From assembly GCA_021464245.1 (NCBI GenBank), contig JADCRB010000016.1:6973801-7037800 (forward strand): DNA of 64,000 nt. The letters run 5' to 3'. The stretch is from Carallia brachiata (taxonomy: Eukaryota; Streptophyta; Magnoliopsida; Malpighiales; Rhizophoraceae). Below are positions 4,801 through 47,900 of this stretch, piece by piece (position 1 is the first letter of the stretch; each line of letters opens with the position of its first letter). The notes beneath the pieces were generated by a model, which saw only the letters and a program-made list of their open reading frames with translations, searched no databases and had not been told where the DNA came from. Both the position numbers and the translations under genes were made by a program.

Positions 4801-5011
4801 GCAAAAGTTTCATCCTCAGAGACGGGATCAAAGCACTTTGATTGTCCACCAAAAATCTACGGGGAGGATCACCTTCTTATGTAGACTTACAATAAACAAT
4901 AGCCAATTGAGCTGACTTAAAAAATGTTACTTTGTCTTTAAGATGCATATAGTCAAACTTGAAGATAACCAAGATCCACAATCCCAAGTGTGAATACACA
5001 GTTATACTCCT
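1874..5011. other. Intergenic; no supported gene
   Basis: About 3.1 kb of AT-rich sequence. Frames of 60-81 codons occur (for example 2354-2599 minus) but have no recognisable domain. An imperfect hairpin lies at about 3503-3577, with arms containing ccttgtcttgacaaaagaaa and the complement of ctttgaccttttctttgtcaagg. The stretch ends directly at the TG of LTR A. Confidence 0.5.
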
Positions 5012-5810
5012 TGTAACGGGTAAATTTCGAGACTAAAATAATTAGACTCAAAAATACAAAAATAAATTACAAATAAAAATTTAAAATAAAAGAAAATTTA
5101 CGTGGGGTCGATCTCCGTAGATCCTTCGATTATTGTTCTTTTTTTGATTCTGTCAAGGGCTGCACGAGCTTGATCTTGACAGCAGTAAATTACACAGCTT
5201 TTTCTTGAACTGGGTAGACTGAAACTAGATCTGATTTGGACGTTTAGACTACGGTCGAAAACCGCAGAGACCTGATCGGAGCCAATCTGGTTTAATTTCA
5301 CCGAGGGTCGAAGGGACTTGTTCTCATATGAGCTGCCTGGACTTCGCTGAGAGCCATACGAGGCTTAATTCCAACCGGATTTGTAGTAATTTGATATTTT
5401 TAGATCTATATTCTCATAAATTCAGATGTAGAGCGATCCGAGAATATAAATCTAAAAATAATTTTAGAAACGGAAACAGCAAATTTTTTGGGGCTTACCC
5501 CTGAAATATCTCTCAAAAAGGAGTTAGGAGAGTATACTGCAGAGTAAAAGCACGTAGGAAAAGGAGAAATTTTCTTGAGAGATTTTCAAAATTTTTTTTT
5601 CTCTCAAATTCTCTGGATTTTTCTGTTTACGGATTTGCCGAATCTGTTTTGAACTGCGGGCCGAGGGCCTATTTATAGGGCTCCTTTCCCATGTGATGTT
5701 CACATGGGAAAGGAATATTTTTTTGAAATATTTTTCCTTGGCCGGTGTTGCCGGTTTCAAGGTCGGCAACGCCGACTATTGACTTCTTTTTTTTTTCTTC
5801 TTTGTTTACA
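5012..5810 (-). repeat. LTR A (3' LTR of the homeobox-carrying gypsy element)
   Basis: This 799-bp copy begins TGTAACGGG and ends GTTTACA on the plus strand, so the minus-strand LTR has TG...CA ends. It shares long blocks with LTRs B, C and D, such as cgtggggtcgatctccgtag and gggctgcacgagcttgatc. A minus-strand TATAAATAG lies near 5669-5677. Upstream of it, in U3, there is an inverted repeat (cccatgtgatgttcacatggg) and GTCGGCAACGCCGAC. It agrees better with B than with C or D, for example in the cgggtaaatttcgag start and the gactacggtcgaaaaccgc block, so A and B probably belong to one element. Confidence 0.88.
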
Positions 5811-5826
5811 AATGCCCCCACTTCAA
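5811..5826 (-). promoter_or_regulatory. Polypurine tract next to the 3' LTR
   Basis: On the minus strand TTGAAGTGGGGGCATT stops exactly where LTR A begins (TGTAAAC). A G-rich purine run abutting the 3' LTR is the expected plus-strand primer site of Ty3/gypsy elements. It fixes the element's orientation as minus. Confidence 0.75.
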
Positions 5827-6729
5827 GGGTCGGTAAGGAAGAACTTTACAGACGTGATCCGCACCGAGTCTTGAAGTCCAGTTTAAAACTTGAGATGTCC
5901 TGATGAACATTAAATGTTGAAATCTTCTATCTCTGACAATGCCTGCTGTTGTTGGATCGCAATAGGAACCCGATACGATCTTGAGAAAGTTAGCACCCCA
6001 GCCAATATAAAAATTGACATTATGGCTTCAAGTGCGTTCGAGCTTCCATGGCTCGCAAAGGCTGGCAAAGGTTCTTTAAAGTTCCAAAGCTCTGGTGAGG
6101 ATGATCCGGTAGGCAAAGAACTTGAACCTCCCCAAGAGGAAGGCCCAGCACTTTGGAACTTCAAAACCGGCACACAGAGAGACTGACTGTAGTGATGATT
6201 CCCAAGTCTGCTTCGACGTAAGGAGAGTAGTTGGAACTTCCCTGTACGTCGCTGCATCCAAAGGAAGATTAGGATGATTGTAGCTTCTCATCCCTCTGTG
6301 GTAGATGTGAACTAAGGAGAGTAGTTGGAACTCCATGACACCGATGGCGTTGGAGACTAAGTTTCGAGGCCTTTTAGGGATCCCTCGAGGAAGACTACTC
6401 CTTCTTTTCTTAGCTCGTGCACCTCCAACTTCTTGATCAAAGAACTTCCTGGGACAAGTGCAGAGACTAGTCATTTTCTTTTGAGAAGAAGAAGAACTGA
6501 GGGGTGAGTATTATGACTCGAACATGCAGGATATATATACATAATATAAAGAGATTTTTTTTTTTTTGAAAAGTCAAAAAGGAGGTACGCAGAATCGAGT
6601 AGGGTCCTCCGCGTCCCTTTCTCCCATAAGAGACAAAAGAGGCAGCGGCTGATGCGGGTTACGAAAGTCGTTACCGTGTGCCGCAGAAGTCGTTGCCGTG
6701 TGCTGTAGAAGTCGTTGCACCTTATCTTG
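5827..6729 (-). other. 3' internal region of the gypsy element, downstream of the homeobox frame
   Basis: GC-richer than the flanks. A minus-strand frame of 132 codons (6474-6076) has a basic patch near its start (AKKRRSSLPRGIPKRP) but no recognised family. A second frame (6257-5910) overlaps it. Two direct-repeat sets are visible: taaggagagtagttggaact at 6219-6238 and 6313-6332, and about 2.5 copies of a 22-bp unit (aagtcgttgccgtgtgctgtag) at 6665-6719. Extra frames between integrase and the 3' LTR are known in Tat-lineage elements, but whether either frame here is translated cannot be told. Confidence 0.45.
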
Positions 6730-7356
6730 TCAGCCGTCCTGGCAGGGCCCTAGGCGTAGCTCCAAGTCAAGCTCGGCCTCGTTTGGTGGGCCGATGATGT
6801 GGACGTTGCTGGAGCCTCCCGGCTGGTTGATGCTGCTAGAATATTCTGGGAAGAGAGGCAAAGTTTTGCCGGAATGACTTCCTTCTGCTAGAAAAGTCCC
6901 TCATAAACTTAAGTACTTGGGAGGAATGAAACCTTGACTAACTCCGTAAGACCACCAGGACCAGTATGCATGCTCCCACAGGCTACGACTTTGATCGTTA
7001 TAGCCTGAAGAGACCATTGTCGTGGTAGAACTCGGATCTACTTCATTTGAGGGCGAAGGTGTACCGGTGGGATCTACTATCGGAACGGCAGACTGTTCTT
7101 TGGAAAAAGTAGCTCTCAATGCTGGTTTCTTCCTGCTTCTCTGATTCTGGAACCAATAAAACACATTTTTTCCTTCGATTGCCCCGAGCGGGCGCAATCG
7201 TGAAACAAGTTGGTAAATCTGAGATGCATTAGGCATAATACCTCCATTGTTGTGGAAGACTTCCTCCAAAATTTGCAGTTGTACCATGGTTGGTTGCCAC
7301 CTTGTGCGAGGTGACCTTTCTTCTCCCTTGTCTTGAGGTTCTGCAACTGGTTCCAT
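6730..7356 (-). CDS. WUSCHEL-like homeobox reading frame carried inside the retrotransposon (one in-frame TGA)
   Basis: The frame starts at ATG 7356 and runs 209 codons to TGA at 6730-6732, with one internal TGA at codon 152 (6901-6903). Residues 17-78 form a WOX-type homeodomain: TRW at 18-20, NNG at 36-38, and IEGKNVFYWFQN at 60-71 with W68, F69 and N71 in the recognition helix. Beyond the internal stop, in the same frame, come a WUS-box (TLPLFP, 165-170) and an EAR-like LDLELRL (196-202) just before the end. This domain order is that of WUS-clade WOX transcription factors, which bind DNA and recruit TOPLESS co-repressors. No intron is present, as expected for a copy captured through RNA. 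It lies between the integrase C-terminus and the polypurine tract, in element sense. As written, only the 151-residue homeodomain protein would be made. A solitary host gene hit by an insertion is less likely, because element sequence continues on both sides. Confidence 0.85.
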
Positions 7357-7742
7357 CTTTCTTGTGGCAGAGGAGCAAAGGTCTGGTGTGTGGTGAAGAT
7401 CGGTTGAGACTGATGTTAGGTTTCAGACTCAAACCCTCCGTCGCTTTTATATTTTTGGGCCGTTCACAGTTTATACTCATGCGGGCCAGGAGTTGGATTG
7501 GATTTTGAACTTGGTTCTGGACTGTGTCTGGAACTTGGAATTTTTGGGTTTTGGGCTTTGGATTGGATTTGGGTCGAGTGTTTGGGTTTAGACTTGGATT
7601 TTTGGATTTGGGTTGAGTGTTTGGTTTTGATTGGACTTAGTTTTGGTTTTGAGTTGGGCTTGAGTTTTCTGAATTGGGCTCAAGTGTTTGGGTTTGGATT
7701 TTGGGTTTGGATTTTCGCTTGGACTTTCAGATCGGGACTTCG

Positions 7743-7784
<42 letters not shown>

Positions 7785-7844
7785 CTATTTTTTTTTTTTT
7801 TTTGATTTTTTTTTTTTTTTTTTTTAAACATATTTACACATAAT
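7357..7844. repeat. Low-complexity spacer between integrase end and homeobox frame
   Basis: On the plus strand 7500-7740 is a degenerate TTTGG/TTGGGTTT-rich stretch. It is followed at about 7746-7825 by an almost pure T run of about 80 bases (A run in element sense). At 7470-7493 there is a single copy of the motif ttatactcatgcgggccagga, which is tandemly repeated at 11103-11280. Long frames across the T run are low-complexity artefacts. Confidence 0.7.
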
Positions 7845-9150
7845 ACTGTTTCAGAAATTTACCATTGATGGGCCGATTCGGACGCCTTCTTGGTCTGACA
7901 GCATGTAAGCGTTGTGAGTGTAGGCCTCCTGCACTAAGTATGGCCCGTCCCATTTGGAAGTAAGCTTGTCACCAGGCCGATGCTTCATGTTGATGGGCCG
8001 TCGCACTGCAAGAACAAGGTCTCCAACTTGAAAAGATCGAGGGCGGACCCTGCGGTTGAACGTGTTGGTGAGCCGGGCTTGGTAGCACTCAAGTTGCTGT
8101 TGTGCTTCGAGCCTCCTTTCATAGGGCTTCTAACTCATCCAGACGTAGGCGAGCATTCTCCTCCTGTGTGAGTCCTTCCAGAACAGCCATGCGCAGGGAT
8201 GGAATCTGTGTTTCCAACGGCAGTATTGCTTCGACACCGTAGACAAGTGAGTATGGCGTCGCCTGTGTTGGAGTCCGGTAAGTTGTACGATACGCCCATA
8301 ATGCCTCCGGAATTCTGTCATGCCAATCTCTTTTGGATTTAGAGACTACCTTCCGCAACAGGTTGCATAAGGTCTTGTTGAATGCTTGGCCAAGCCATTT
8401 GCTGGGGCATTGTACATGGATGACTTGTACTGCTTGAACTTGAACTTCTCGCAGAGCTTGTCGATCAAGCTGTTGTAGAACTGCTTGCCATTATCAGTGA
8501 TGATGAATCGAGGGACTCCATAGCGATAGATCAGCTGAGTCCGGATGAAATTGGCAACATGCTCCTTCTTTACCTCTCTAAGTGGAATGGCTTCGGCCCA
8601 TTTTGAGAAGTAGTGTTGCTGCGAGGATGTACAGGTGACCAGGGATGACTTTGGCAAGGGCCCCACTAAGTCGAGACCCCAAGCTTCAAAGGGCCAGGAT
8701 GAGACAGTTGGATGCAGTGGCTGGCCGGTGGTTGATGTATGTAATTCGCATGAAATTGACAAGCTTGACAAGTTTTAGCAAACTCAATGGAATCACGTAC
8801 CATGGTTGGCCAGTAGTATCCCATCCTTCTGAGTTGGAAGTGCAACTTAGGCCCTGATTGATGTCCGCCACAAACACCAGAATGTGCTTCAGTAAGAGCC
8901 TGTTTTGCCTCTTCATTGCCTAGGCAGCGAAGTAAAACTCCATCAAAAGACCTTCGATACAGAGCATCCTTGAGATATATGAAGCGGGGAGCTCGTCGTT
9001 GAATTTCTGTCTTATGACGACGATCTTCGGGCAGCTTCCCGTGCTGTAGATAGTCAATGATTGGTTGGCCAATCTCGTCCTCCGCGAGACGTACAGATAC
9101 AGCGTTGGCTGCTGTAGTTTCTTCATCATCCTTCTGTGGCACTATCCATT
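7845..9150 (-). pseudogene. Gypsy integrase, frameshifted
   Basis: In minus-strand order, the zinc-binding region has HSGVCGGH followed by CQAC, an H-H-C-C finger. The catalytic core shows the first Asp in WGLDLVGP and the second in ITDNGKQF. The C-terminal region includes PEALWAYRTTYRTPTQATPY and, near 7850-7960, the KWDGPYLVQE and IGPINGKFLK motifs. Frame changes are visible near 8718, 8640 and 8387. At 8387 one base is lost exactly where the third catalytic residue (Glu) would be encoded, between NGLA and AFNKT. Integrase would insert the element's cDNA into the genome, but this copy cannot make an active enzyme. Confidence 0.9.
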
Positions 9151-9600
9151 TCTGGCATACGGCAACAACTGTAGCCTGGATTTCTGACTTTGCAAGAGAA
9201 GTGGCCAGGTTAGCCAACGCGTCTGCCTGAGTGTTTTCTCGTCGAGGCACATGCTCCAAGGTGATGCTTTCAAATTCATCCATTAGCTATCGAGCACGTT
9301 GATGGTAAGGCCAAGTCCTCTTTCTTCACGTCATACAATCCTGTAAGTTGGTTGATGACGAGTTAGGAATCTCCATGGACTTCTATAGTTGGAATCTTCA
9401 TATCGATAGCCATTTGAAGACCAATGATTAAAGCCTAGTATTCAGCAACATTATGTCGGCACCAGCACCATCACGCCTTGCTGCACCATCAAAGAATATC
9501 GTCCATGGTGGTAGTGTGTCAATGTAAAAGACCTCTTCATCTGGAAGATCATCTGTGAACTCCCGGTAGACGGGATAAGATGATCTGCAAGGAAGTCTGC
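9151..9600 (-). pseudogene. Second (archaeal-type) RNase H of Tat-lineage gypsy element
   Basis: The segment begins with WTIFFDGAARRDGAGA, holding the first catalytic Asp, and ends with VPRRENTQADALANLA, holding the last. This is the extra RNase H that follows the normal RT-RNase H in the Tat/Athila branch. Between them the frame contains TAG after a Tyr codon (near 9435) and TAA after Asp-Ser (near 9370). Both sit where family members carry Gln, so each fits a CAG/CAA to TAG/TAA change. A further frame change lies near 9340. Confidence 0.82.
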
Positions 9601-10281
9601 TAGAGCTTGTCCTTTGACTGCTTTCTGAGGCACGTAGATAATGTCGTAACTTTGTAGGATTACTGCCCACTTAGCAAGTCGTCCTGACAAGATTGGTTTA
9701 AATAAGATATATTTGACAGGATCAGCTCTAGCAATGAGACGTATCGTGTGAGCTTGCATGTAGTGCCTCAGCTTATCAACGGTAAAGAACAATGCTAGAC
9801 ATGTCTTTTCAATGGGCGAATAACTTAGCTCCGGACCGTTTAGTGTTCTGCTCAAATAATACAGAGCAACCTCTTTTCCCTGCTCATTTTCCTGTGCAAG
9901 TAAGGCTCCCAAAGATCTTTCCTGCGCTACAATGTAGAAAATCAATGACTTTCCTTGAATTGGAGCACCTAGGACCGGTGGATTGGAAAGGTACTTTTTT
10001 ATGCTCTCAAAGGCTTTGCTGCAAGCTTCGTCCCACTTGAAGTTGACATCCTTCTTCATCAATCGATGGAAAGGTTGACATCTCCCAGCTAAATTGGAGA
10101 TGAAACGACGAATGTAGGCTAGCTTTCTTTGTAGACTTCGCAGCTCGTGCAGATTTTTAGGTTCAAGCATCTTTTGAATTGCTTCAACCTTCGACTGATC
10201 AACTTCGATTCCACGATGGCGCACCACGAACCCTAGAAACTTTCCTGATGTGACACCGAATGCACACTTGAGAGGGTTCAT
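9600..10281 (-). pseudogene. Gypsy RT thumb/connection and first RNase H
   Basis: The frame starts at MNPLKCAFGVTSGKFLGF, the thumb-proximal LGFxV block, and continues through FKWDEACSKAFESIKKYL into RNase H: FYIVAQERSLGALLAQ, VALYYLSRTLNGPELSYSPIEK and TCLALFFTVDKLRHYM. It is one open frame of about 230 codons. It joins the preceding RT part through a frameshift at about 10285, where internal sequence is missing. In the first RNase H of this lineage catalytic residues are often already changed; here the expected YxD-type start reads FYIVAQE. Confidence 0.87.
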
Positions 10282-10898
10282 TTTAAGCTGATGCCTGCGA
10301 AGTCTTTTGGGGTGCGGAATGCTATCAACTCCTCGTCTTCTGATGCTATTTTGATTTGGTTATAGCCTGAAGAACCATCCATGAAGGACAATGCTTCGTG
10401 AACCGTTGTTGCATCGAGTGTGATCTCCGTTATGGGCAATGGAAAGTCATCTTTCGGACAGGCCCTGTTAAGATCTCGAAAATCAACACATACCCTCAAC
10501 TGTCCATTCTTCTTTCTTACCGGGACTATGTTGGCAATCCACGTTGGGTAGGTGACCTCTCGGATGAAGCCAGCATTGATCAGCTTGTTAACCTCCTCCT
10601 CGATTTGTGGAATGAGTTCCGGGTAGAACTGTCGTTGTGGCTGCTTGACAGAACGAACACCTTTCTTTACTGCTAGACGATGCACCGCAATTTTTGAGTC
10701 AAATCTAGGCATTTCTTTGTAACTCCATGCGAACACGTCCCTGTATTAACTTAATACCTGAACATATTTTTGTTCTTCTTCTGCAGTAAGTAAAGCACTT
10801 ACAAATGTAGGTTGGGGATCTTCTGGAAAGTCAAGATTGACCTCCTTGAGTGACATGTAATGCAGAGATCCTGACTTCATTTTTTCTGTTTGATTGGA
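10282..10898 (-). pseudogene. Gypsy reverse transcriptase fingers/palm, internally deleted
   Basis: The frame contains RDVFAWSYKEMP, IREVTYPTWIANIVPVRKKN, RVCVDFRDLNRACPKDDFPL and LSFMDGSSGYNQI, which are RT blocks 1-4 of plant Ty3/gypsy. After FRTPK (near 10300) the sequence jumps to RLRRHQLKMNP. The stretch that should follow, including the YxDD catalytic box, is absent. Upstream, the linker with MSLKEVNLDFPEDPQPTF carries a TAA near 10745. The copy is therefore unable to reverse-transcribe. Confidence 0.9.
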
Positions 10899-12409: not shown

Positions 12410-12676
12410 GTAGGGGTAGGTGATCGACTCCTCTATTTAGTGACAGAGTTACGTGAGAAATCTAACTGCTGTGTGAGCTACAAGTCCTCAATTTTAACTT
12501 TGTTGGTGGCGAGGAACTTTGTTCTTGCGCGAGTCTGGTGGACTTATTTGAGTGGCAAGAAACTGTGTCCGTCCGCAGGTTTGTGGTCCTGCGTACCCAG
12601 GTAGGGTAGTTGATGTAGGTAGTGGAATAGTTGCCTTTTTTTTTGTAGCAGTGGTTGTACTCTTTTTTTGTGCCAT
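12410..12676 (-). pseudogene. Gag N-terminus, element with LTR B
   Basis: Starts with MAQKKSTTTATKKKATIPLP, then TLPGYAGPQT and GRTQFLATQ. It is clearly related to the gag start at 16687 (MAPKRSTAAT..., TLPGYAGPET). Homology can be followed to about 12410 (ggtaggtgatcgactcctc against gggtgggtgatcgactcctc at 16471) and is then lost before the integrase-like block. The central gag core is missing, so this element cannot encode a complete Gag. Confidence 0.7.
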
Positions 12677-12689
12677 TTGATGTGCTGGA

Positions 12690-12976
12690 TACCTATTAAA
12701 TTTTTTTTTTTTACTTTTTTAAACTTTTTTAAATTTTGTCTTTTTTTTTATACTTTTTTACCTTTTTTGTCTTTTTCTCTATTTTGTCTTTTTCTCTTTT
12801 TCTTTTTTCTTTTTTTTCTTTTTTCTCTTTTTCTTTTTCCTTTTCTTCGGTTCTTTGTTTTTTCCTTTTTTTTTCTTTTTCTTTTTTTCTTTTCTCTGCT
12901 ACTTTTTTTTGCTTTTTTTTTTTTTAAGGAACAAGAGATGGGAGGTGAAGCGGTCCCACCGAGCGTTCCAAAAATT
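12690..12976 (-). repeat. Pyrimidine tract and primer-binding region, element B
   Basis: A 220-bp T/C run (12700-12926) lies between gag start and LTR, purine-rich in element sense. It is followed by aaggaacaagagatgggaggtg and, at 12955-12972, gtcccaccgagcgttcca. On the minus strand this last piece begins TGG directly downstream of the LTR, the place of a primer-binding site. The same sequence occurs next to LTRs C and D. The tRNA it pairs with was not identified. Confidence 0.65.
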
Positions 12977-13463
12977 TATAACGGGTAAATTTCGAGTTTA
13001 AAATAATTAGACTAAAAAATACAAAAATAAATTACAAATAAAAATTTAAAATAAAAGAAAATTTACGTGGGGTCGATCTCCGTAGATCCTTTTGATTATT
13101 GTTCCTTTTTTGACTCTGTCAAGGGCTGCACGAGCTTGATCTTGACAGCAGTAAATTCCACAGCTTTTTATTGAACTGGGTAGACTGAAACTGGATCTGA
13201 TTTAGACATTTAGACTACGGTCGAAAACCGCAGAGACCTGATCGGAGCCGATCTGATTTAATTTCACCGAGGGTCGAAGGGATTTGTTCTCGGATGAGCT
13301 GCATGGACTTTGCTGAGGACCGTATGAGGATTAATCCTAATCGGATTTGTAGTAATTTGATATTTTTAGATCTATATTCTCATAAATTCAGATGTAGAGC
13401 GATCCGAGAATATAAATATAAAAATAATTTTAGAAATGGAAACAGCAAATTTTTTGGAATTTA
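12977..13463 (-). repeat. LTR B, truncated at an N
   Basis: It starts TATAACGGG (TG changed to TA) and follows LTR A closely through ataattagact, cgtggggtcgatctccgtag, actacggtcgaaaaccgcag and cagatgtagagcgatccgag. It breaks off at 13463, in the middle of the LTR, directly before N at 13464. The promoter half (U3) is missing from the assembly. As the 5' LTR it would pair with LTR A around the pol- and homeobox-carrying element. Confidence 0.82.
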
Positions 13464-13464
13464 N

Positions 13465-13779
13465 TGCGTACCCAGGTAGGGTAGTTGATGCAGGCAATGG
13501 AGCCGTTGCCTTCTTTTTTGTGGCAGCAGTTGTACTCCTTTTCGGTGCCATTTAATGTGCTGAACACCTTGTTAAATTTTTTTTTTTTTCACTTTTTTTT
13601 TTTTACTTTTTTACCTTTTTCGTCTTTTTCTCTATTTTGTCTTTTTCTCTTTTTCTTTTTCTTTTTTTCTTTTTCTTTTTTTTTTCTTTTTCGGCTCTTT
13701 TTTTTTTCTTTTTTTTTTTTTTTTTTTTAAGGAACAAGAGATGGGAGGTGAAGTTGTCCCACCGAGCGTGCCAAAAATT
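13465..13779 (-). pseudogene. Gag start and primer-binding region, fragment between N and LTR C
   Basis: From 13465 the plus strand reads tgcgtacccaggtagggtag, encoding (minus) the LPGYA part of the gag start. It continues to an ATG near 13550, a T-rich run (13570-13728) and gtcccaccgagcgtgcca at 13757-13774 beside LTR C. Only about 30 gag codons remain before the N. This is a third copy of the LTR/PBS/gag-start junction. Confidence 0.7.
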
Positions 13780-14722
13780 TGTAAAGCGTAAATTTCGAGT
13801 CTAAAACAATTAAACTCGAAAATACAAAAATAAATTACAAATAAAATTGTAAAGTAAAAGAAAATTTACGTGGGGTCGATCTCCGTAGATCCTCCGATTA
13901 GTGTTCCTTTTTTGACTCCGTCAAGGGCTGCACGAGCTTGATCCTGACAGAAATAATTTCCACTGCTTTTTCTTGAACTGGGTAGACTGAAACCGGATCT
14001 GATTTGGACGTTTTGACTACGGTTAAGAACCGCAGAGACCTGATCTGAGCCGATCTGGCTTAATTTCACCGAGGGTCGAAGAGACTTGTTCTCGGATGAG
14101 CTGCCTGGATTTTGCTGAGGGCCGTATGAGGCTTAATCCCAGCCGGATTTGTAGTAATTTGATATTTTTAACTCTATATTCTCAGAAATTCAGATCTAGA
14201 ACGATCCAAGAATATAAATTTAAAAATAACTTTAGAAATGGAAACAGCAAATTTTTTGGGCTTTACCCCTGAAATATCTCTCAAAACGGAGTTAGGAGAG
14301 TATACTGCTAAGTAAAAGCACGTAAGAAAAGGAGAAATTTTCTTGAGAGATTTTCAAAATTTTCTTTTTCTCTCAAATTCTCTGAATTTTTCTGTTTACA
14401 GATTTGCTGAATCTGTTTTGAACTGAGGGGCATGGGCCTATTTATAGGGTTTCCCCTCTCGTGTGAAAGCACGCGTGTGAAAGGCATAAGTCGACTTTTC
14501 CGTGTGAAAGGCATAAGTCGACTTTTCCGTGTGAAAGCACGCGTGAGAAAGGAATAAGTCGACTTTTCTGACTTTTCCGTGTGAAAGCATGCGTGAGAAA
14601 GGAATAAGTCGACTTTTCCGTGTGAAAGCACACATGCGAAAGGAATAAGTCGACTATTGACTTTTTTTTTTTTTTCTTTTTTTTTTTTTCTTCTTCTTTT
14701 TTTTTTTTTTTTTTAATGTTTA
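13780..14722 (-). repeat. LTR C with tandem repeats in U3
   Basis: It starts TGTAAAGCG and matches LTR D in its first 650 bases (aaaacaattaaactcgaaaa, agaaataatttccac). A minus-strand TATAAATAG lies at about 14439-14447. Upstream in element sense (14458-14655) four to five copies of a roughly 40-bp unit containing agtcgacttttcygtgtgaaag replace the inverted-repeat U3 sequence of A and D. The end near 14722 runs into N at 14723. Confidence 0.83.
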
Positions 14723-14724
14723 NG

Positions 14725-16687
14725 ATTGTGGGGTTTGGACCCCAGCAGGAGATCCTCATCTGAAAATGAGATAGCAGAGTAACATCCGACGTGATTTTGG
14801 CCGTCTGTTGCTCCGCTGAGTTAGAATCATTTGATGGCTGTGATTCAGCTGAGGTCTGGAGAGTATTGCTGACTTGATTTTGCCACACTTCTGTTGATTG
14901 CAAAGCTATAAACAGCTGAGGGTTAGCGAGAAGGGTTTGGAGAGCTTCATATACCTTCTCCGTTGTCGACTTTTTGTTGTCGAGCGGCTCCTCCTTACGG
15001 TGTGTCACCTCTTCTGATGGTTTTGAAGTGATGGTGGTTGGTTTGCGAGTTATGCCTTCCTGGTCCAGAATGATTTTATTCTGGCTTTTGAGCTTCATGA
15101 TTAGCTCCTTCAGGACGAAACACTTCTCGGTTGGATGACTTACTATCCGGTGATATTTGCAGAATCTCGGATCGCTGACTCGATCCTTTTCATTCGGCCG
15201 CTTGCACTCTGGGAGTTCGATCAGCTTCGCCTCCAAGAGTGTTCAAGAATGTCGGGGACGTCTGAGTCGGGGAATGGATACTGCTTCTGCTCCAACTCTC
15301 GCAATGTCACCTTCCGCCTTTCCTGTTGTTTTGGCTGAGTTATTTGGGTCGGAGGATTTACCTTAGCTTTAGCCCACTTTTACTGGTGCGGCTTCAACAG
15401 TCATCACTTTTCCTTTTCCGGAGCTGTTGGGTTTCTTAATCTCCCTTCTGCCCCCTTGCTGGTCCAACTGGATGGGAACCGTGCCTCCGGAAGTCTGGAT
15501 GCTTATCTCCATATCATGTGCGCGGGTCGCCAGTTCTTCGAAAGTTCGGGGTTTGACACCCTGCAGGATGTATAACAGCTCCCAATGCATTCCCTGGATG
15601 CACTCCACGGCAGAAGTCTCCGTCAGGCGATCTTTGCAGTCCAAGCTGAGGGCACGCCATCTGTTGATGTATTCGACAACGGGCTCTCCTTTCCTTTGTT
15701 TGGTGCTGGTAAGCTCCATCATACTTACCGTCCTTCGAGTGCTGAAAAATCTGTTGAGGAACTCTCGTTGTAGCTGTTCCCAACTGTCGATCGATTCTGG
15801 TTCAAGATTTATGAACCAGGTGAAAGCGGTCTCCCTGAGTGAACGAACAAACTGCTTCACCAAGAGATCTCCGTAAGTCCCTGCGTTGTTGCAGGTTTCA
15901 ACGAAGTGGGCGATGTGCTGTTTGGGATCGCCTCGTCCGTCGAATTGTTGAAATTTGGGCGGCTGGTAGCCCAAGGGCATGTTGAGACTTTCGATCCGTC
16001 TGGTGTACGGTTTGACGTACATCTGTGATCCTTGGAAGGATGTAGCTTGTTGCAGTCGGATCGTATTGGCTATCATTTCCTGCAATTGTTGAACAGATAG
16101 CGAAGCTACAGAATTTGAGGGTGGCAGCTGTGTAGAACTACCTGGTCGCTTTTCTGCAGGAAGACGTCGGCTGGTGTGGCTTCTGGAGTGAAACCGGGTG
16201 GATATGGTTGCTCCTCGCGGATTCGGGATCAACTTGGATCGGGGCTTTTCCTTTGAGAGCGGCGATCTGTTGATCTTTTTCCTCCACGACTCTGATCAGC
16301 TGCAAAATTTTGTTCTCCAATTCTGAAATTCTTTCTCTGTGCTGGTTGTGTTGGTCATCATGACGGCAACAGATGAGGCTCCGGAAAGACTGGGGGGAGA
16401 AACTCTTCTGATTCTTCTGTGTGAGTGGATTTGTTGAGCAGGCTTCGTCGTGTTGCCCCCGACTTCGATCGGGGTGGGTGATCGACTCCTCCATGCGGCA
16501 AGAGAGTCAGGGGAGAGATCCTGTTGTGCGAGCTGTGGACTCTCCATTTCATTTTTTGGGTTTGGACGGCAAGAAATTGTGTCCGTCCCCGGGTTTCTGG
16601 ACCTGCGTACCCAGGTAGGGTAGTTGATGCAGGCAATGGAGCCGTTGCCTTCTTGTTGGTCGCAGCTGTACTTCTTTTCGGTGCCAT
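14725..16687 (-). pseudogene. Gypsy gag region, element with LTR D
   Basis: The gag start at 16687 (MAPKRSTAATNKKATAPLP) is followed after frame changes by a charged helical stretch ([21 protein letters not shown]). A 287-codon open frame (16232-15369) then holds the Gag core: [33 protein letters not shown] and [21 protein letters not shown] further frame (15236-14725) has FCKYHRIVSHPTEKCFVLKE, a C-x2-H...H-x4-C region typical of the C-terminal Gag part of this lineage. Gag would form the particle shell. The N at 14723 cuts the frame where protease should follow, so no pol is attached to this copy. Confidence 0.83.
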
Positions 16688-16699
16688 TTGATGTGCTGA

Positions 16700-16748
16700 A
16701 CACCTGTAAAATTTTTTTTTTTTTTTTTTTTTTACTTTTTTTTTATTT

Positions 16749-16797
<49 letters not shown>

Positions 16798-16875
16798 CTT
16801 TTTTCTTTTTTTTTTTTTTTTTTTAAGGAACAAGAGATGGGAGGTGAAGATGTCCCACCGAGCGTGCCAAAAATT
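16700..16875 (-). repeat. T-rich leader and primer-binding region next to LTR D
   Basis: Nearly pure T run (16711-16824), then aaggaacaagagatgggaggtg and gtcccaccgagcgtgcca (16852-16869) six bases from the LTR. This is the layout seen beside LTRs B and C. In element sense the leader is an A-tract between primer-binding site and gag. Confidence 0.7.
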
Positions 16876-17681
16876 TGTAAAGCGTAAATTTCGAGCCTAA
16901 AACAATTAAACTCGAAAATACAAAAATAAATTACAAATAAAAATTGTAAAATAAAAGAAAATTTACGTGGGGTCGATCTCCGTAGATCCTCCGATTAGTG
17001 TTCCTTTTTTGACTCCGTCAAGGGCTGCACGAGCTTGATCTTGACAGAAATAATTTCCACAGATTTTTCTTGAACTGGGTAGACTGAAACCGGATCTGAT
17101 TTGGACGTTTTGACTACGGTTAAAAACCGCAGAGACCTGATCTGAGCCGATCTGGTTTAATTTCACCGAGGGTCGAAGGGACTTGTTCTCGGATGAGCTG
17201 CCTGGATTTTGCTGAGGGCCGTATGAGGCTTAATCCCAGCCGGATTTGTAGTAATTTGATATTTTTAGATCTATATTCTCATAAATTCAGATCTAGAGCG
17301 ATCAGAGAATATAAATTTAAAAATAACTTTAGAAATGGAAACAGCAAATTTTTTGGGCTTACCCCTGAAATATCTCTCAAAAAGGAGTTAGGAGAGTATA
17401 CTGCAAAGTAAAAGTACGTAAGAAAAAAAGAAATTTTCTTTAGAGATTTTTAAAATTTTCTTTTTCTCTCAAATTTTCTGAATTTTTCTGTTTACAGATT
17501 TACTGAATATGTTTTAAACTGGGGACCGAGGACCTATTTATAGGACTCATTTTTCATGTAAACATCACATAGGAAAGGAATAATTTTTTAAAATATTTTT
17601 CCTTGGCCGACGTTGTCGATTTCAAGGTCGGCAACGCCGACCATTGACTTTTTTTTTTTTTTTTCTTAAAATATGTTTACA
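16876..17681 (-). repeat. LTR D (outer 5' LTR of the complex)
   Basis: 806 bp, TGTAAAGCG...GTTTACA on the plus strand. A minus-strand TATAAATAG lies at about 17533-17541, with the same type of U3 (GTCGGCAACGCCGAC) as LTR A. Its first 650 bases match C better than A. The bases flanking the outermost LTRs (ctcct before A, atcat after D) do not match, so A and D do not look like the two ends of a single insertion. Confidence 0.86.
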
Positions 17682-19329
17682 ATCATTACAAAAAATTCCT
17701 TGTTGGTTATGATACGAACAATCTTTGAGTGATTTTCTCATAATTACCTTGAACTATACCATGCAGGAAGGCCAGGTGGCTGCATGAGCATTGGAGTTCA
17801 GAGGGTGCAGAAGAACGGTTCCAATTTGCTTTGTATTTGCCATTTTCCTTAGCCTTTTTCTTTGGGAGTGATGCGCCAAATTCAATACAAAGGAGCTTTA
17901 CCCTGCTGGGGCAAGGGAATTGAGGCCTGCCAGGGCAAAGTATGGAAGCGGTGGGCTTTCGCGGCTACTGCCGGCTCCACTACTTCAGCAGATTGGAAAA
18001 CATATCAGAGCTTAAAATAGTACATGAATTTTATAATTTGGTTATCAACAAGATTATAATATTACACTTAAATAATAATAAGTAATAACACAATTCTATT
18101 CAACAACATATGATAATTTATATTTTTTCTTATGAATTTAATTATCTAACAGCGCTTCAATTTATTGTTATTTTGAAATTATTCTTATAAAGTAAAAAAA
18201 AAAATTTCTTTTAACAATATTTTGATACAGAGACTAAACAATAAGAACCCAAAAAGAAAATATGTTTTAATTAGGCAAAGTTTGAGTTCGATCGATCTAA
18301 TACCACTGCAATGTACACTTGACCGATTATTAGAGTTACTTATCAGCAAAATGATGACTTATATTCTCAAATTGCCAATGTGCATTTTTCTCCTGTTGGA
18401 CCCGTTTATCATTTCAAGAGATAAGACGTGTGAGCACACGTGTGTACGTGCTTGTTCTTATAATATTTAGCAGAATTGCTACAATTTGTAGTGTGATTAT
18501 ATTGTCCTTCACGAAAAAAATTAAAAAAGTAAAAGGAAATTCCTCATGTCGGACCTCTTTAACATCTCTAAGGCCAGAAAAGGGGAAGCCAGACAGCTTC
18601 CCGGCCTATCGGAAGATTCAGAACGGCATAATGTGAAAGGAACGACAAGAGGCCGCATCTTAGGAGGAAACCAAAAACAACAAAAAAGAGCAATCTGGGG
18701 CATTCGACTTCAATTTTGTTCCGTAGTCAATAATGGAGCATTAATTGGATGGAGGAATTCAATTTTGTTCCCAATTCAATAATCACTGCATTAATTAGAA
18801 TAGCGCACAAGTGGCTCGAATTCTTCCAGATTTCAACCCTAAATTTTAATATTTTGCGGTTATTAGCTTACAAATAATGGGATACAAAATATGCCCCGAA
18901 CGACTTTTTTTTCCTCATTCTATGAGCAGTTAGCATTTTTTCCTCATAAGAGTGAAATATTACAAACTTATTAAAAAAGATTGTGTCGCTTTACTGCACA
19001 CATAGTGTGCATAAACTGTGATATTAAACTATTGAATGAACATATTCCTGAATTTTAATAAAAATTATCAAATTATTCTCACAATTGTATTAATATGGAC
19101 AATTATACCTTTAACTGGATCGGGAATTAAAATAAAACAGAAGTAGAAGACACCAGATTAAATTTAACATATTAAAGGAAAAATAAAAAGGCAAAAGTCC
19201 ATGAAATTATATGCCAAAAGTGGCAAAATCAAACAACTTGATTAGATTTCTTAAAATTCAGTGAAATTAAATGGAAAAAAAGAAACCTGAAAATCGTTTT
19301 TCTTGAAGCCGAAACGATTTTCCCATTAT
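17682..19329. other. Intergenic, no gene recognised
   Basis: AT-rich with short frames only. A locally GC-richer stretch at 18540-18700 holds two overlapping frames of 60-78 codons on opposite strands with no known domain. At 17760-18000 a non-repetitive segment (ggccaggtggctgcatgagc) could be a gene relic, but no family was recognised. Confidence 0.45.
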
Positions 19330-28542: not shown

Positions 28543-30831
28543 TCAAGTCTGATACTGCTCAGCAAGTTTCATCAGACTATAGGTCTCAGCATCTGGCCTG
28601 GCACCCCCTAAAATCATCCTTCTCAAAAGATTAGGGTCATAAACCTTGGCATTTACATAAGCCTTTATAAAAGTATTGCACACAAAAGTATGCCTTGTAT
28701 ACTTAGCTTTCCCGAGTTCCTTAAATAACTTTTCAGCGTTAACTACATCACCTCTCTCTGCAAAGCTTTCTAAGATTGAAAGAGTAGTTTCCAGCCATGG
28801 GGCTGAACATTTGACCCTGTTGCTAGTCGTCAAGTTTGCTCCCTTCTCAAGTGTCTTCAATGCTTCCTCCGTTAGTTCAGCTCTCAAACAACCCAAAGCA
28901 AGTTGTCGAAAAGTGATGGCATTTGGTTTACACCCATTGCTTTCCATTTCCCTAAATATTCCTGTTGCCTTTTTAATAAGACCATGTCTGCAATACACAG
29001 ACAACATGGAATTGAAGGGCTCGGTTGAGTTAAACCCTTTTAGTGACTTCAACTCTATCCAAAGCTCTTCAGCTCGACTGATTTGTCCTATTCTTCCAAA
29101 TGCTTCAATTGCAAGCAAGTAACTTTTAGACCTTAGATGAGGGAGTTCTTGCACAGTGCCCCAAGTTCTCTCTAGCTCCTCTTTCTTTTCCAAATATCCA
29201 TACAATATTATCAAAACATCCAGTGTTGACCAATTAGCTCCAGTCCGCGACTTCTCTACAGCTTCAACATATGCTTCAGCTGCTGTATACAATCTTGCCA
29301 CCACATGTGCTGTGGCTAATATGCAGAAAGATATCTCATTTGGCTCAACTTCTAATTGCTTCATTTCACTAAACACCCTCACCAACCCATCTATATCATG
29401 GTCATTTGCTTTAATTTTCATCAGGATGTTGTAGGTGGAGACATGAGGAGACACCTTACAAGCCTTCATCTGAGCAAGAAATTTCGGGATCATTTTCCTT
29501 CGGCCAGGTGAGGAATGAAGGATTATGAACCGATTGAATATTAAATGGGACATGGGGTGACCAAGCTCCCTCATTTTCTTCATGTAGTCAAGGGAAAGCC
29601 TTATGACACCTTTCTCCAGGCAAGCAATCACAAGATTGTTATATAGCAACTCATTCTGGAATTCAGAAGGCACGCGTAAGAAAAGCTTCTCTGCATGTGG
29701 TATCCCATGAATTTTAGCCGTAAACTCCAGTAGATAAGAGTAATCAAGCTCCTTTGGCCTGTAGGGCCTCTCCCTAATCACCCATTCCATCACCTGCCAC
29801 AATTATAGTAAATTCCACATTTTCAAGCAATTTTTCACCCAATATACTATTAAAAAAAAAAAAAAAAACTCTTCTTCTTCCGAACAGACATCCATTATAG
29901 GATTCATTGCATCAGAAAAACCAATGGGGGTCCTGACCCATTGAACCAAAATATTGGTAAAAAATGTGCTATCACCATGCTCATGTATCATTCCATATTC
30001 CCATTTGGCTGCCATGAAGAAGAAGAAGAAACCACAATAAATAAATAAATAAATAAATAAAAAAAACCCCATCTTTGAATGCATTACAACACGTATCTCG
30101 CTTGCAATCAAGCCACATCCAACTAACCGATGGCCAATTCAACAGCAAGTTTTTTTTTTCTTCTTTATTTTCAACCAATACCCACATAAAAACTAGCCTT
30201 AAAATACTAAATTTCCTCTCTTTCCTCTCCTAGACCTCCTACTCACACTCACTCAAGCATTAGAACAAACATGTCCTCAAAAAAATAAATTAAAATAAAC
30301 CAACCAACTTGCAAGATTTAAATGTAGACTAACCTCAAGCGCGCGCTTGTTCAATCTGAGCTTCCTCAGACGGTTAATCGAGTGGAAAATGTCACCTCTG
30401 TGAATGGGGTGTCCCTCGCCCATCCAGCTCTGGAAGGCAGACCCCACTGCTTCTCCTCTGGGCAGATTCTCTATTCTCATAGACAAGCACTTCGGTCCCC
30501 CTTCTTCGTCTTCTTGTTTTTCCAATCCAAAACTTTGCTCGGGAAAGTTATCACCTGTTTGGGTGCAGAGAAAATTGGAAAGTCTGGGAATTTTGTGGAG
30601 AAATGTAAAGGGTATGGAACGCGTTCGATCAATTGCTCGCGAGAACCTGCCTTGCCCGAGAAGGCCCAGCGCGCGCATACTTCCTTTTGCAAGCTTTGCG
30701 ACCTGAGGACGACGCAGAAACGAAAAGCTGGAGTTTTTTTTTTTATGCAGGTTGGGCTTGGAAATGAAGACTAGATTCAATCTCCAGTTAGGCGAGGCTT
30801 GACTTAAAGCTGGAAAAACTTGAACGTGCAT
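28543..30831 (-). CDS. P-type pentatricopeptide repeat protein, probably organellar
   Basis: Two exons, 30831-30334 and 29793-28543, join in phase 0 (GAG|GTTAGT ... GTGGCAG|GTG) and give 582 residues. The N-terminus is basic and Ser-rich with no acidic residue for the first 60 residues, like a mitochondrial or plastid presequence. An internal Met at residue 52 is an alternative start. The body has tandem 35-residue helical repeats, for example STYNILMKIKANDHDIDGLV, EPFNSMLSVYCRHGLIKKAT and AITFRQLALGCLRAELTEEA. The WMGEGHPIHRGDIFHSINRL block before the repeats is typical of a short P-class subgroup. PPR proteins bind organellar RNA. No E, DYW or SMR domain follows, so editing deaminase activity is not expected. 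RNA target unknown. Confidence 0.9.
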
Positions 30832-44961: not shown

Positions 44962-47900
44962 TCAAAAACGCACTGCCTCATCTAGAAGTTGGTCAAAAAT
45001 CATATCTTCCAGGTCAAGTGCAACATCCTCAAAATCCAATGCCAGGTTCATCCAAGCATCACCCTTTTCAAAGTCTCGACCGACAATGTCATCCAGTGAT
45101 TGATCCATCTCTGGCCTTGAGGTCTTGTACCAACTGATTCCTTTCCAGACTTGCTCAACAACCCGGTTTCCCTTAGGCAGTGGATGGGCTTTTTGAGCGA
45201 GGGAAAAGAATTTTGGGAAGTAGGCTAATGAGCTTCCATATATTTCAAGAAGTAACTCATTCACCAAATCAAACAGAAGCCGGTGATTACAGTTGCAGCT
45301 GAAGTCCTCTTCTGAGAGATGGAGTTCAGGGTGCAAATAAGCCTCCAGTTCCTTGAACAACATAGGACTCAATGGTTGGTCTAACGAGTGCCATGTTCCA
45401 ATGTGCCCTTGCTCAATGAAGCCCGAAATGTCAAGAACATCCCTCACATAACTGAATTCAGGGTCATCCTGATTATTTGAACCAAAGCCAATGAAATGGC
45501 CATCAACTATTGTGTTTCCAGTTCCGAGATTGACAGAGGGATTGGATACATGATCGCCAATGGCCCTGCAGTCCAACTCTACACCTGATACAATTTAGAG
45601 AAAGCAATTACAACCAAATGAATCATATTGATGACAACGAATGACCAGAATGAAGTAGAACATAGCAGATTTTTGCTAAAGTTCAATCTTCAAGTTGTTA
45701 CTGCATACTTTCTCTATACATGTATTCCATTTGAGGCATTAGATATCTTATACGATGAAAATAACTTCAGTCTAGGGGTATATTAAAATTGTCAAGTGCA
45801 TAGATTGCTTTCACCAATTCTTTATCACACATAAGTAGCATGGTAACAAGGCTGTACACTTACCTTGTGAAGTTGGAAGCTCAGTCTGAGCAGTCATACT
45901 ATCTTGATAGTGAATCTCCGAAGCTATAAGCAAAGCTTGTTCATCCTTCCTAATGAAGCTTTTAGAACTGATCTCCTGATCTTGGTGAGGAACCAGCTCA
46001 ATTGTATAGCCTTGTAATTCATCTGAAGTTGAAGTTTCCTCATCACTGTTGTTACCTCCTTCTACCATGACATACGAAAGTTCCTCCTCTTCAATCGAAT
46101 CTAGTGCTTCGGTTTGTTTCCTGTCTAGAGGAATGCTTGTTAACTTCAAGCCCATAAGGCTATCACTCTCAGCATTCATACCACAGGCCTCAGCACTTCT
46201 CACTGGCAACACTAGATTGGCTGTATCATACAAGGTTTCACTTGGAAGTGGACAGATAGACTCAAGATCAGACAGAGAGAGTCTCCTTCTGAAGGATTTC
46301 ATGCTATGTCCACCAGCCGGAACCTTATCCTCGCTAGTCAGTCTCAAGCTCTTAGATTGATACTGATGCCACTTAGTCTCTACGGTTGAACTGGACTCAA
46401 ATAAGCGAGCATATCTATCCAGTGACTCGTGCAGTGAGGATGCTCTTCTCATTTGGGGAACTCCACCCTTGTTGAGATAACCATGAACATCATCCCTCTC
46501 ATCCGAACTTCTTGGTTTTTCAGTGTCTTGTTGCTGAATAGCGATCTCCTTCAAATTTTCACAAGTTTCTTTCTCATCGGTGAGCAACACACAATCAGAA
46601 GAAACTTCTTGGAGGAGTGGTTCACTTTTTGATGTATGCTTTCTCCCTTTTTTGCTCTCTTTGAGTGCTTGTTTTATTCTCTTCTTGATATATCTAATCT
46701 GACTCACTAATGATTGGCGCCATCTGTGCTTATATAAACTCTGGGAGGCAGCAAGAGAAGAAATGGTTGTCTCTTGAGTGCCGGCAGTGCTGCTACTATC
46801 ATCACCCTTAATGGCTATTAGTTTCTCACGGGAATCATCAGCAGAAGCAGATGCCACAGGTTTTGGTGCTTGAGCACCAGCGAGAGGCAATTTTTCTCCT
46901 TTGTTGAAGGACACTATTTCCTTCTGCTTATCTTCAAGCGTAACAGGCTTCATAGATCTAGTGTGTGAGTAGTTAGCTGCAGGATATGACCCTGATCTTC
47001 TTAATCTTGCTTTTGCACTGAAAGTCTCCTGAACATGAGGGTTCTTGACAACTTGAATATCAGGATTTTGCAGTATGTCCATGAATAGCTTCTTGTTGAC
47101 CTTAAATACCTCCAAAATATCCACGCATTCCTTAAATTGTTGATATGAGACTTCTCTGCTGATCTCCTTGGCATCTGAGAGGCTTTTTTTTATGAAGGGT
47201 TTCCTCAATTCGTCACACTCCTCGGGAGAAAAGGCATGCTTTGCAGAAAATTGGTTTTTCTCTAAGCCGTCCGTAGAATCCATAGAGTCAGTATCAGAAT
47301 TTTTGTGGAGTATTATAATTGGATTTCCCCAACCACTACTTATTCCACCAAGTAAATTGTCTGAAGTTCTCGCAGACTTCTCCTCAGCAAGCCTTGCTTT
47401 GATGTGATCTTTCCTCAATTTGGTTGTTTGTTGCTCATCCTGGTAGATGCATCACCAAACACTCTCACTTAAACGAATGAATTTTGATGACCATAAATAA
47501 GAACAAGTACAAATTAATAGATTCTTGGGTTAAGTTATACGAACCAGCAGGGGGACTGCTTCAGCATCCAAGTACTCTTCCATCTCATCACAGTAATCTT
47601 TAAAAGAAAGTGTTTTTGGATTTCCAAAGCCTACATAAAAAAAAAGGGATTCAATGTTACGACGTTCAACTAAGGAAAAGAGAATCCTTGTAAATTGTAG
47701 ACTAAATTATGAAGTTCAGGCAACTAACGAAGCCATCCAATCCCATAAACCTTAAAAGGACAGAAATAACCACCTGAGTTTGTTTTGGTGGTCATTGAGC
47801 TCTTTAGCCAGGAGAGAGTAGGAGTTCGAATCCCACCTCCCTCGTCCCTGTCCCATTGAGCATAAGCCCTATAACAGACCGCACAAAAAAAAAAAAAAAA

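Follow-up and report, generated by a model that had tools for sequence, protein, structure and literature searches.

A WUSCHEL-type homeobox gene in a Ty3/gypsy retrotransposon family of Carallia brachiata

The genome of Carallia brachiata contains hundreds of copies of a WUSCHEL (WUS)-type WOX homeobox frame, lying within units that have the anatomy of LTR retrotransposons: long terminal repeats (LTRs), a primer-binding site (PBS), a polypurine tract (PPT) and target-site duplications. The frame is also present in short elements that are poor in pol, and homeodomain variants shared among copies show an excess of synonymous changes. The explanation in which we have good confidence is that a Tat-type Ty3/gypsy family took up a spliced WUS-type homeobox gene and keeps it in sense orientation as an accessory gene, encoding what would be a WUS-like repressor.

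The WOX frame and the element around it

One copy lies in a stretch of 64,000 nucleotides, hereafter the window (assembly GCA_021464245.1, contig JADCRB010000016.1, positions 6,973,801 to 7,037,800). Its features are as follows.

7356..6730, minus strand: WUS-type WOX frame, ATG start, 208 positions when translated across the premature TGA at 6901-6903
7108..7308, minus strand: homeodomain stretch, residues 17-83, WUS-type spacing (Pfam, solved-structure match, AlphaFold2 and Foldseek)
6847..6864, minus strand: WUS-box TLPLFP, past the premature stop in the window copy
6751..6771, minus strand: C-terminal LDLELRL, an EAR-like motif, in the WOX frame
7357..7492, minus strand: conserved 136-base block before the ATG, with TATAAAAG at 7444-7451 (copy alignment)
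7854..9286, minus strand: integrase pieces (H2C2, rve, SH3-like) with several frame breaks, opening with part of a second RNase H (RVT_3; Pfam)
9454..10745, minus strand: reverse transcriptase and RNase H pieces (Pfam)
5811..5824, minus strand: PPT GAAGTGGGGGCATT, adjoining the 3' LTR (junction 5804-5824)
5011..5810 (about), minus strand: 3' LTR, inner end from the PPT/LTR junction, outer end from the limit of similarity
12953..12970, minus strand: PBS-like sequence adjoining the partial 5' LTR (from sequence)
12976..13463, minus strand: partial 5' LTR closing the gap-free stretch, with 93.8% identity to the 3' LTR over 482 aligned bp

The initial annotation of the window described an intronless minus-strand frame with a WOX homeodomain, TLPLFP and LDLELRL. 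All three do share one frame, which starts with ATG and requires no frameshift, but an in-frame TGA that went unmentioned there ends the window copy after codon 151, ahead of both C-terminal motifs. With this correction, the observation of a WUS-type frame within a gypsy element is confirmed. The frame matches the Pfam Homeodomain (E 1.1e-11), and among proteins of solved structure its sequence matches Protein WUSCHEL best (E 2.1e-18). The spacing from RW to WFQN is 53 residues, as in 109 of 120 public matches, while 10 of the 120 have 52 residues, including the four labelled WOX3-like; the combination of spacing, WUS-box and LELxL is common to 91 of them. The AlphaFold2 model has a three-helix homeodomain at high confidence (block means above 90 for residues 21-70) and is of low confidence elsewhere. 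Foldseek yields 11 matches at E of 0.001 or lower, every one a WUS or STENOFOLIA homeodomain (WUS-HD, E 8.9e-5).

The placement of the frame between the end of the integrase and the PPT of a gypsy element, in the same orientation, is borne out: the integrase pieces on one side and the PPT and LTR on the other are on the minus strand, and frame, pol pieces, PPT and 3' LTR lie on one gap-free stretch, since the window has no Ns other than one at 13464 and one at 14723. The Pfam domain order of reverse transcriptase, RNase H and integrase is that of gypsy elements, with RVT_1 and rve scoring below their cut-offs, and past the single-N joins there is a Retrotrans_gag match at 15372-16295 (E 1.8e-13). 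The dual-RNase-H label of the initial annotation is weakly supported: RT_RNaseH is followed, directly before H2C2, by a partial RVT_3 whose score falls just under the Pfam cut-off (E 4e-4; 20.7 bits against 21.6). Ogre and Retand elements of angiosperms are reported to have this order of RNase H, second RNase H and integrase (PMC6317226). On the basis of this domain layout, the best reading is that the element is probably a Tat-type (dual-RNase-H, Ogre/Retand-like) Ty3/gypsy retrotransposon.

Three more same-strand LTR copies with leaders overlap at 12554-17682 around the single-N joins, and represent either nested copies or a scaffolding artefact; because they overlap across the joins, the 5' end of the element in the window is insecure. 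An 80-base A-rich tract is present at 7746-7825, shortly past the integrase end. Elsewhere in the window, a PPR-repeat frame (28543-29802) and a DUF3741 frame (45811-47451) are probably ordinary host genes.

The 136 bases before the WOX ATG are much more uniform among copies than the sequence further upstream, with a diversity of 0.015-0.067 against 0.17-0.29 in 22 copies. The block contains TATAAAAG near -95 relative to the ATG; TATAAAA is found in 22 of 24 copies, and the short copies L011 and L013 retain the block though the sequence preceding it differs. By inference, the block looks like the promoter and leader of the WOX gene. On the other side, about 0.9 kb between WOX and the PPT (5825-6729 in the window) is recognisably common to copies and contains no shared reading frame; in the window it contains TTCCAACTACTCTCCTTA twice. 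A second conserved ORF in this interval was considered and rejected, as frames of 70-297 codons shift between copies (13 read of 15 tried). Self-regulation through WUS sites in the LTR was likewise rejected: nine LTRs compared with shuffles for seven motifs gave no consistent pattern, with p <0.05 in two cases only (TTAATSS in L010 and L013), which speaks against simple self-regulation of this kind.

Copy number and units of insertion

A 32-base WOX homeodomain probe finds 864 places in the 337.5-Mb genome (164 contigs, up to 3 mismatches) and a 32-base integrase probe finds 753, while the reversed control probes of both find 0. A search of the genome with the window frame gave 150 scored matches from 2057 first-look candidates, at 84-93% identity when the window copy is excluded. 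All 20 sampled copies, taken with about 10 kb each, carry the WOX frame with a same-strand LTR downstream, and RNase H and integrase lie upstream of WOX in 14 of them. The remaining six comprise one with integrase beside a run of Ns, one with scraps of pol, one with a 30-residue scrap of integrase and three without a pol match. A frame occurring once in the genome, an outcome that would have refuted the initial reading, is excluded by these counts, and most sampled copies lie between an integrase and a same-strand LTR.

Exact 5-bp target-site duplications flank six of the eight LTR...WOX...LTR units examined, with near matches in L010 and L018; that of L012 is exact only after the LTR end is shifted by 7 bases. 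Duplications, PBS and PPT were read in the sampled units, the PBS and PPT in the window copy as well, and the duplications in the sampled units alone. In four of the pol-bearing copies the 5' LTR lies 7.8-8.1 kb upstream of the WOX ATG (duplication exact in three, near match in L018). L010-L013, which are short and have scant pol or none, have both LTRs within 10 kb (exact in three, near match in L010). As the duplications bound the LTR...WOX...LTR units, these units are what moved, and the suggestion that the element may have spread the frame is supported. The LTRs of L011-L013 match the window LTR only in part, at about 78-80%. A processed pseudogene inside one element was rejected as an origin: the exact repeats of at least 9 bases common to the flanks are A-tracts only, and the copy number excludes it.

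Seven of nine measured LTR pairs are 97-99% identical. The other two fall lower: L028, a partial pair, at 94.3%, and L020, whose alignment has a large gap, at 91.9%. L021 has 2 mismatches in about 860 bases and L013 has 6 in about 890; with substitution rates of 7e-9 to 1.3e-8 changes per site and year, these insertions would date to about 0.1-0.2 and 0.3-0.5 million years ago, respectively. The window copy, with LTRs 93.8% identical over 482 bp, is older.

Linkage between the two probes was counted from the listed exact matches on contigs C1-C23 (60 integrase, 43 WOX), and its counts are lower bounds. An exact integrase match lies upstream on the same strand for at least 33 of the 43 WOX matches, and an exact WOX match lies downstream for at least 32 of the 60 integrase matches, 31 of them at 0.83-1.05 kb. 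The one fetched integrase place that has no exact WOX match still bears a WOX piece (residues 1-81); elements without WOX may also exist in the genome. Two exact WOX matches stand 0.86 kb apart on the same strand (G000:C1:424859 and 425721), perhaps a duplicated WOX segment.

No stop occurs over the query in 102 of the 150 scored copies (counted by eye), and 19 of 24 copies are open for at least 203 codons, both counts carrying a bias, as copies that resemble the query more closely rank higher in the search. Of the C-terminal motifs, exact TLPLFP is found in 15 of the 24 copies and a looser form in 23, and LDL[EK]L in all 24.

Constraint on the homeodomain and origin of the frame

As that ranking also applies to the 24 copies, a DNA probe was used to add 12 more, chosen from the listed exact matches with their sequence unseen, not by lot. 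Many copies are broken: over 67 homeodomain codons, five of the 12 are intact, three have stops in register and four are out of register. The four out-of-register copies were dropped, and the 24 with the eight in-register probe copies make up a 32-copy set, counted with the codons under the probe omitted. In this set, homeodomain variants present in at least two copies are 14 synonymous and 9 nonsynonymous (ratio 0.21, p 1.7e-4), while private variants are 13 and 32, respectively (contrast with shared variants, p 0.018). The 24 copies give 9 synonymous and 2 nonsynonymous shared variants (ratio 0.07, p 5.5e-5) against 9 and 24 private ones (p 0.003). Outside the homeodomain the ratio for shared variants is about 0.5. 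When all variants are pooled, the ratios of the homeodomain (0.44) and the remainder (0.53) are not distinguishable (p 0.73), so the case for selection rests on the shared variants. Pairwise dN/dS is 0.44 overall, 0.18 for the homeodomain and 0.53 outside it, in pairs that are not independent. We read the pattern of shared synonymous and private nonsynonymous variants as that which selection during transmission, followed by decay after insertion, would leave.

R19, I47, G58, F66, N71 and R75 are invariant in 24 of 24 copies and Q70 is present in 22. In WUS, the base contacts of the homeodomain are made by R38, Q89, N90 and R94, and the F101A mutant keeps DNA binding, mostly as a monomer (PMC7203112). 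These five WUS positions correspond to R19, Q70, N71, R75 and residue 82 of the element protein, the last being Ala in 21 copies and Thr in three. The element protein resembles Arabidopsis WUSCHEL in homeodomain spacing, fold, base-contact residues, WUS-box and C-terminal LELRL, but differs in a homeodomain that is about half identical, a much shorter middle region and the Ala or Thr at the F101 position.

With cacao WUS as query, two ordinary host WUS genes (77% and 76% identity) and several further WOX genes rank ahead of all element copies. The two host paralogues, L029 and L030, share about 70% identity across 233 compared columns, and a WUS protein tree places them near Turnera (weak support, 81/19), outside the legumes. 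In one host WUS, positions 2-131 of the cacao query are matched first and positions 156-279 about 0.8 kb later; the gene is split after the homeodomain. At this position, interrupted by introns in a host WUS, the element frame runs on without a break. This fits capture through RNA, as the initial annotation had proposed, without proving it, other routes being possible.

Among 109 public WUS-length homeodomains, which average 91% identity with each other, the best identity to the element homeodomain is 53%, which makes an old capture probable. A homeodomain tree that includes host WOX genes sets the element frames apart from these as one group (100/100), with a stem of about 2 (1.99) changes per site. 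In AU tests on the homeodomain alone none of four alternative groupings is rejected (p 0.375 for grouping with WUS, 0.415 with WOX3), so that the description as WUS-type rests on spacing and motifs. The earlier assignment to the WUS clade needs qualifying in this respect: the homeodomain is at best 53% identical to those of the compared WUS genes, and the AU tests on it do not single out WUS among the WOX clades. No close relative was found among about 5.8 billion proteins, within the length and word limits of those searches, nor any relatives among the viral contigs searched.

These data bear on several other ways of explaining the family. That an ordinary host WOX pseudogene stands beside an unrelated gypsy insertion would be compatible with the single decayed window copy taken alone, but can practically be dismissed: the probe finds 864 places, the 20 sampled copies all have WOX and then an LTR, and the duplications lie outside the LTRs. 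It is a more serious, but still improbable, proposition that WOX was captured and is copied by an active element as a passenger without helping it, the open frames reflecting recent amplification from few sources. Many copies are indeed young (7 of 9 LTR pairs at 97-99%), groups of equal-scoring copies exist, and the region outside the homeodomain is weakly constrained. However, the shared homeodomain variants skew synonymous, and the frame is open in many copies despite a homeodomain about 47% different from those of the compared WUS genes. In a neutral simulation with substitutions only, carried to 47% divergence, the mean was 5.4 stops, and 0.7% of 300 runs had none.

The open frame may, on the other hand, also be due to divergence as a host gene before capture. 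In its full form this would mean that an already divergent host WOX paralogue was captured recently, so that divergence and most of the constraint date from its time as a host gene, which we consider quite unlikely. The element frames are indeed a single shallow cluster with a long stem; yet none of the two host WUS and several other host WOX genes groups with them, and the constraint is seen in variants shared among the element copies themselves. We retain the view that a WUS-type gene was taken up, probably long ago, and has been kept by the element.

A putative meristem effector and its relation to known systems

On this preferred explanation, a dual-RNase-H gypsy family would have captured a spliced copy of a WUS-type gene and kept it in sense orientation between integrase and PPT, behind what appears to be its own TATA-bearing leader. 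The product made from this promoter would be a compact repressor of roughly 203-207 residues, binding WUS-type sites through the retained base-contact residues, and probably doing so as a monomer in view of the Ala or Thr that matches WUS F101. The WUS-box and EAR motif have a TOPLESS-recruiting role, and the corresponding motifs of the element protein may act likewise. As to the benefit, our preferred guess is that the protein acts in the shoot meristem, on the stem-cell lineage that leads to germ cells. The gain could come by either of two routes: promotion of stem-cell identity, or dampened activity in the meristem of host genes such as those for silencing. Transposon expression has been reported to rise transiently in meristems ahead of flower induction (PMC7560203).

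Accessory frames are known from other plant retrotransposons. Tat and Retand elements bear additional ORFs between pol and the 3' LTR, the same position as that of the Carallia WOX frame, and Tat has a second RNase H (PMC11963269, PMC7264820, PMC6317226), in agreement with what the initial annotation had stated about Tat-lineage elements; homeobox or WUS terms are absent from PMC11963269 and PMC6317226. In Phalaenopsis, Gypsy_Pa_2799 carries a 2-ODD ORF (m6A RNA demethylase) that is called functional in the title of the report (PMC9289625); this is an RNA-acting enzyme, while the Carallia ORF is of a developmental transcription factor type.

The nearest parallel is in legumes. Vigna marina and V. 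riukiuensis have many WOX copies (more than 1000 in V. riukiuensis), mostly between identical LTRs with target-site duplications, according to a 2023 meeting report (PMC10714607), so that the earlier statement that no description of such an element was known needs a slight correction. As in the Carallia family, WOX is multi-copy, flanked by LTRs and bounded by target-site duplications. Unlike the present analysis, the section of that report on WOX is silent on element lineage, pol structure and date, and offers neither a sequence nor a selection test; the host is a legume, and the WUS genes of Carallia fall outside the legumes. We found no full paper on the Vigna amplification in the open-access literature, nor, besides Vigna and judged by title and abstract, anything closer on WUS or homeobox genes or extra ORFs in plant LTR elements.

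Capture of host genes by plant gypsy elements reportedly extends to other genes and lineages (Steinbauerova, 2011): extra ORFs of Athila are said to resemble LOGL4, and ORFs of chromoviruses to resemble histone H3. The meristem is a site of action of LOG genes, too; no paper linking LOGL4 with a retrotransposon was found in the open-access literature. A broader and distinctly tentative hypothesis is that retrotransposons repeatedly seize WUSCHEL as a selfish developmental effector, a selected repressor that would shift meristem fate or silencing for entry into the germ line, the bean and Carallia families being separate captures.

In Carallia, the DNA-binding domain of the master regulator of plant stem cells is spread by a mobile family, apparently under selection, and transposons can inflate WOX gene counts in plant genomes. 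If the protein acts, the family would parallel, in development, the capture of oncogenes by retroviruses, and it would become testable whether manipulation of the meristem is a way for plant transposons to get into germ cells.
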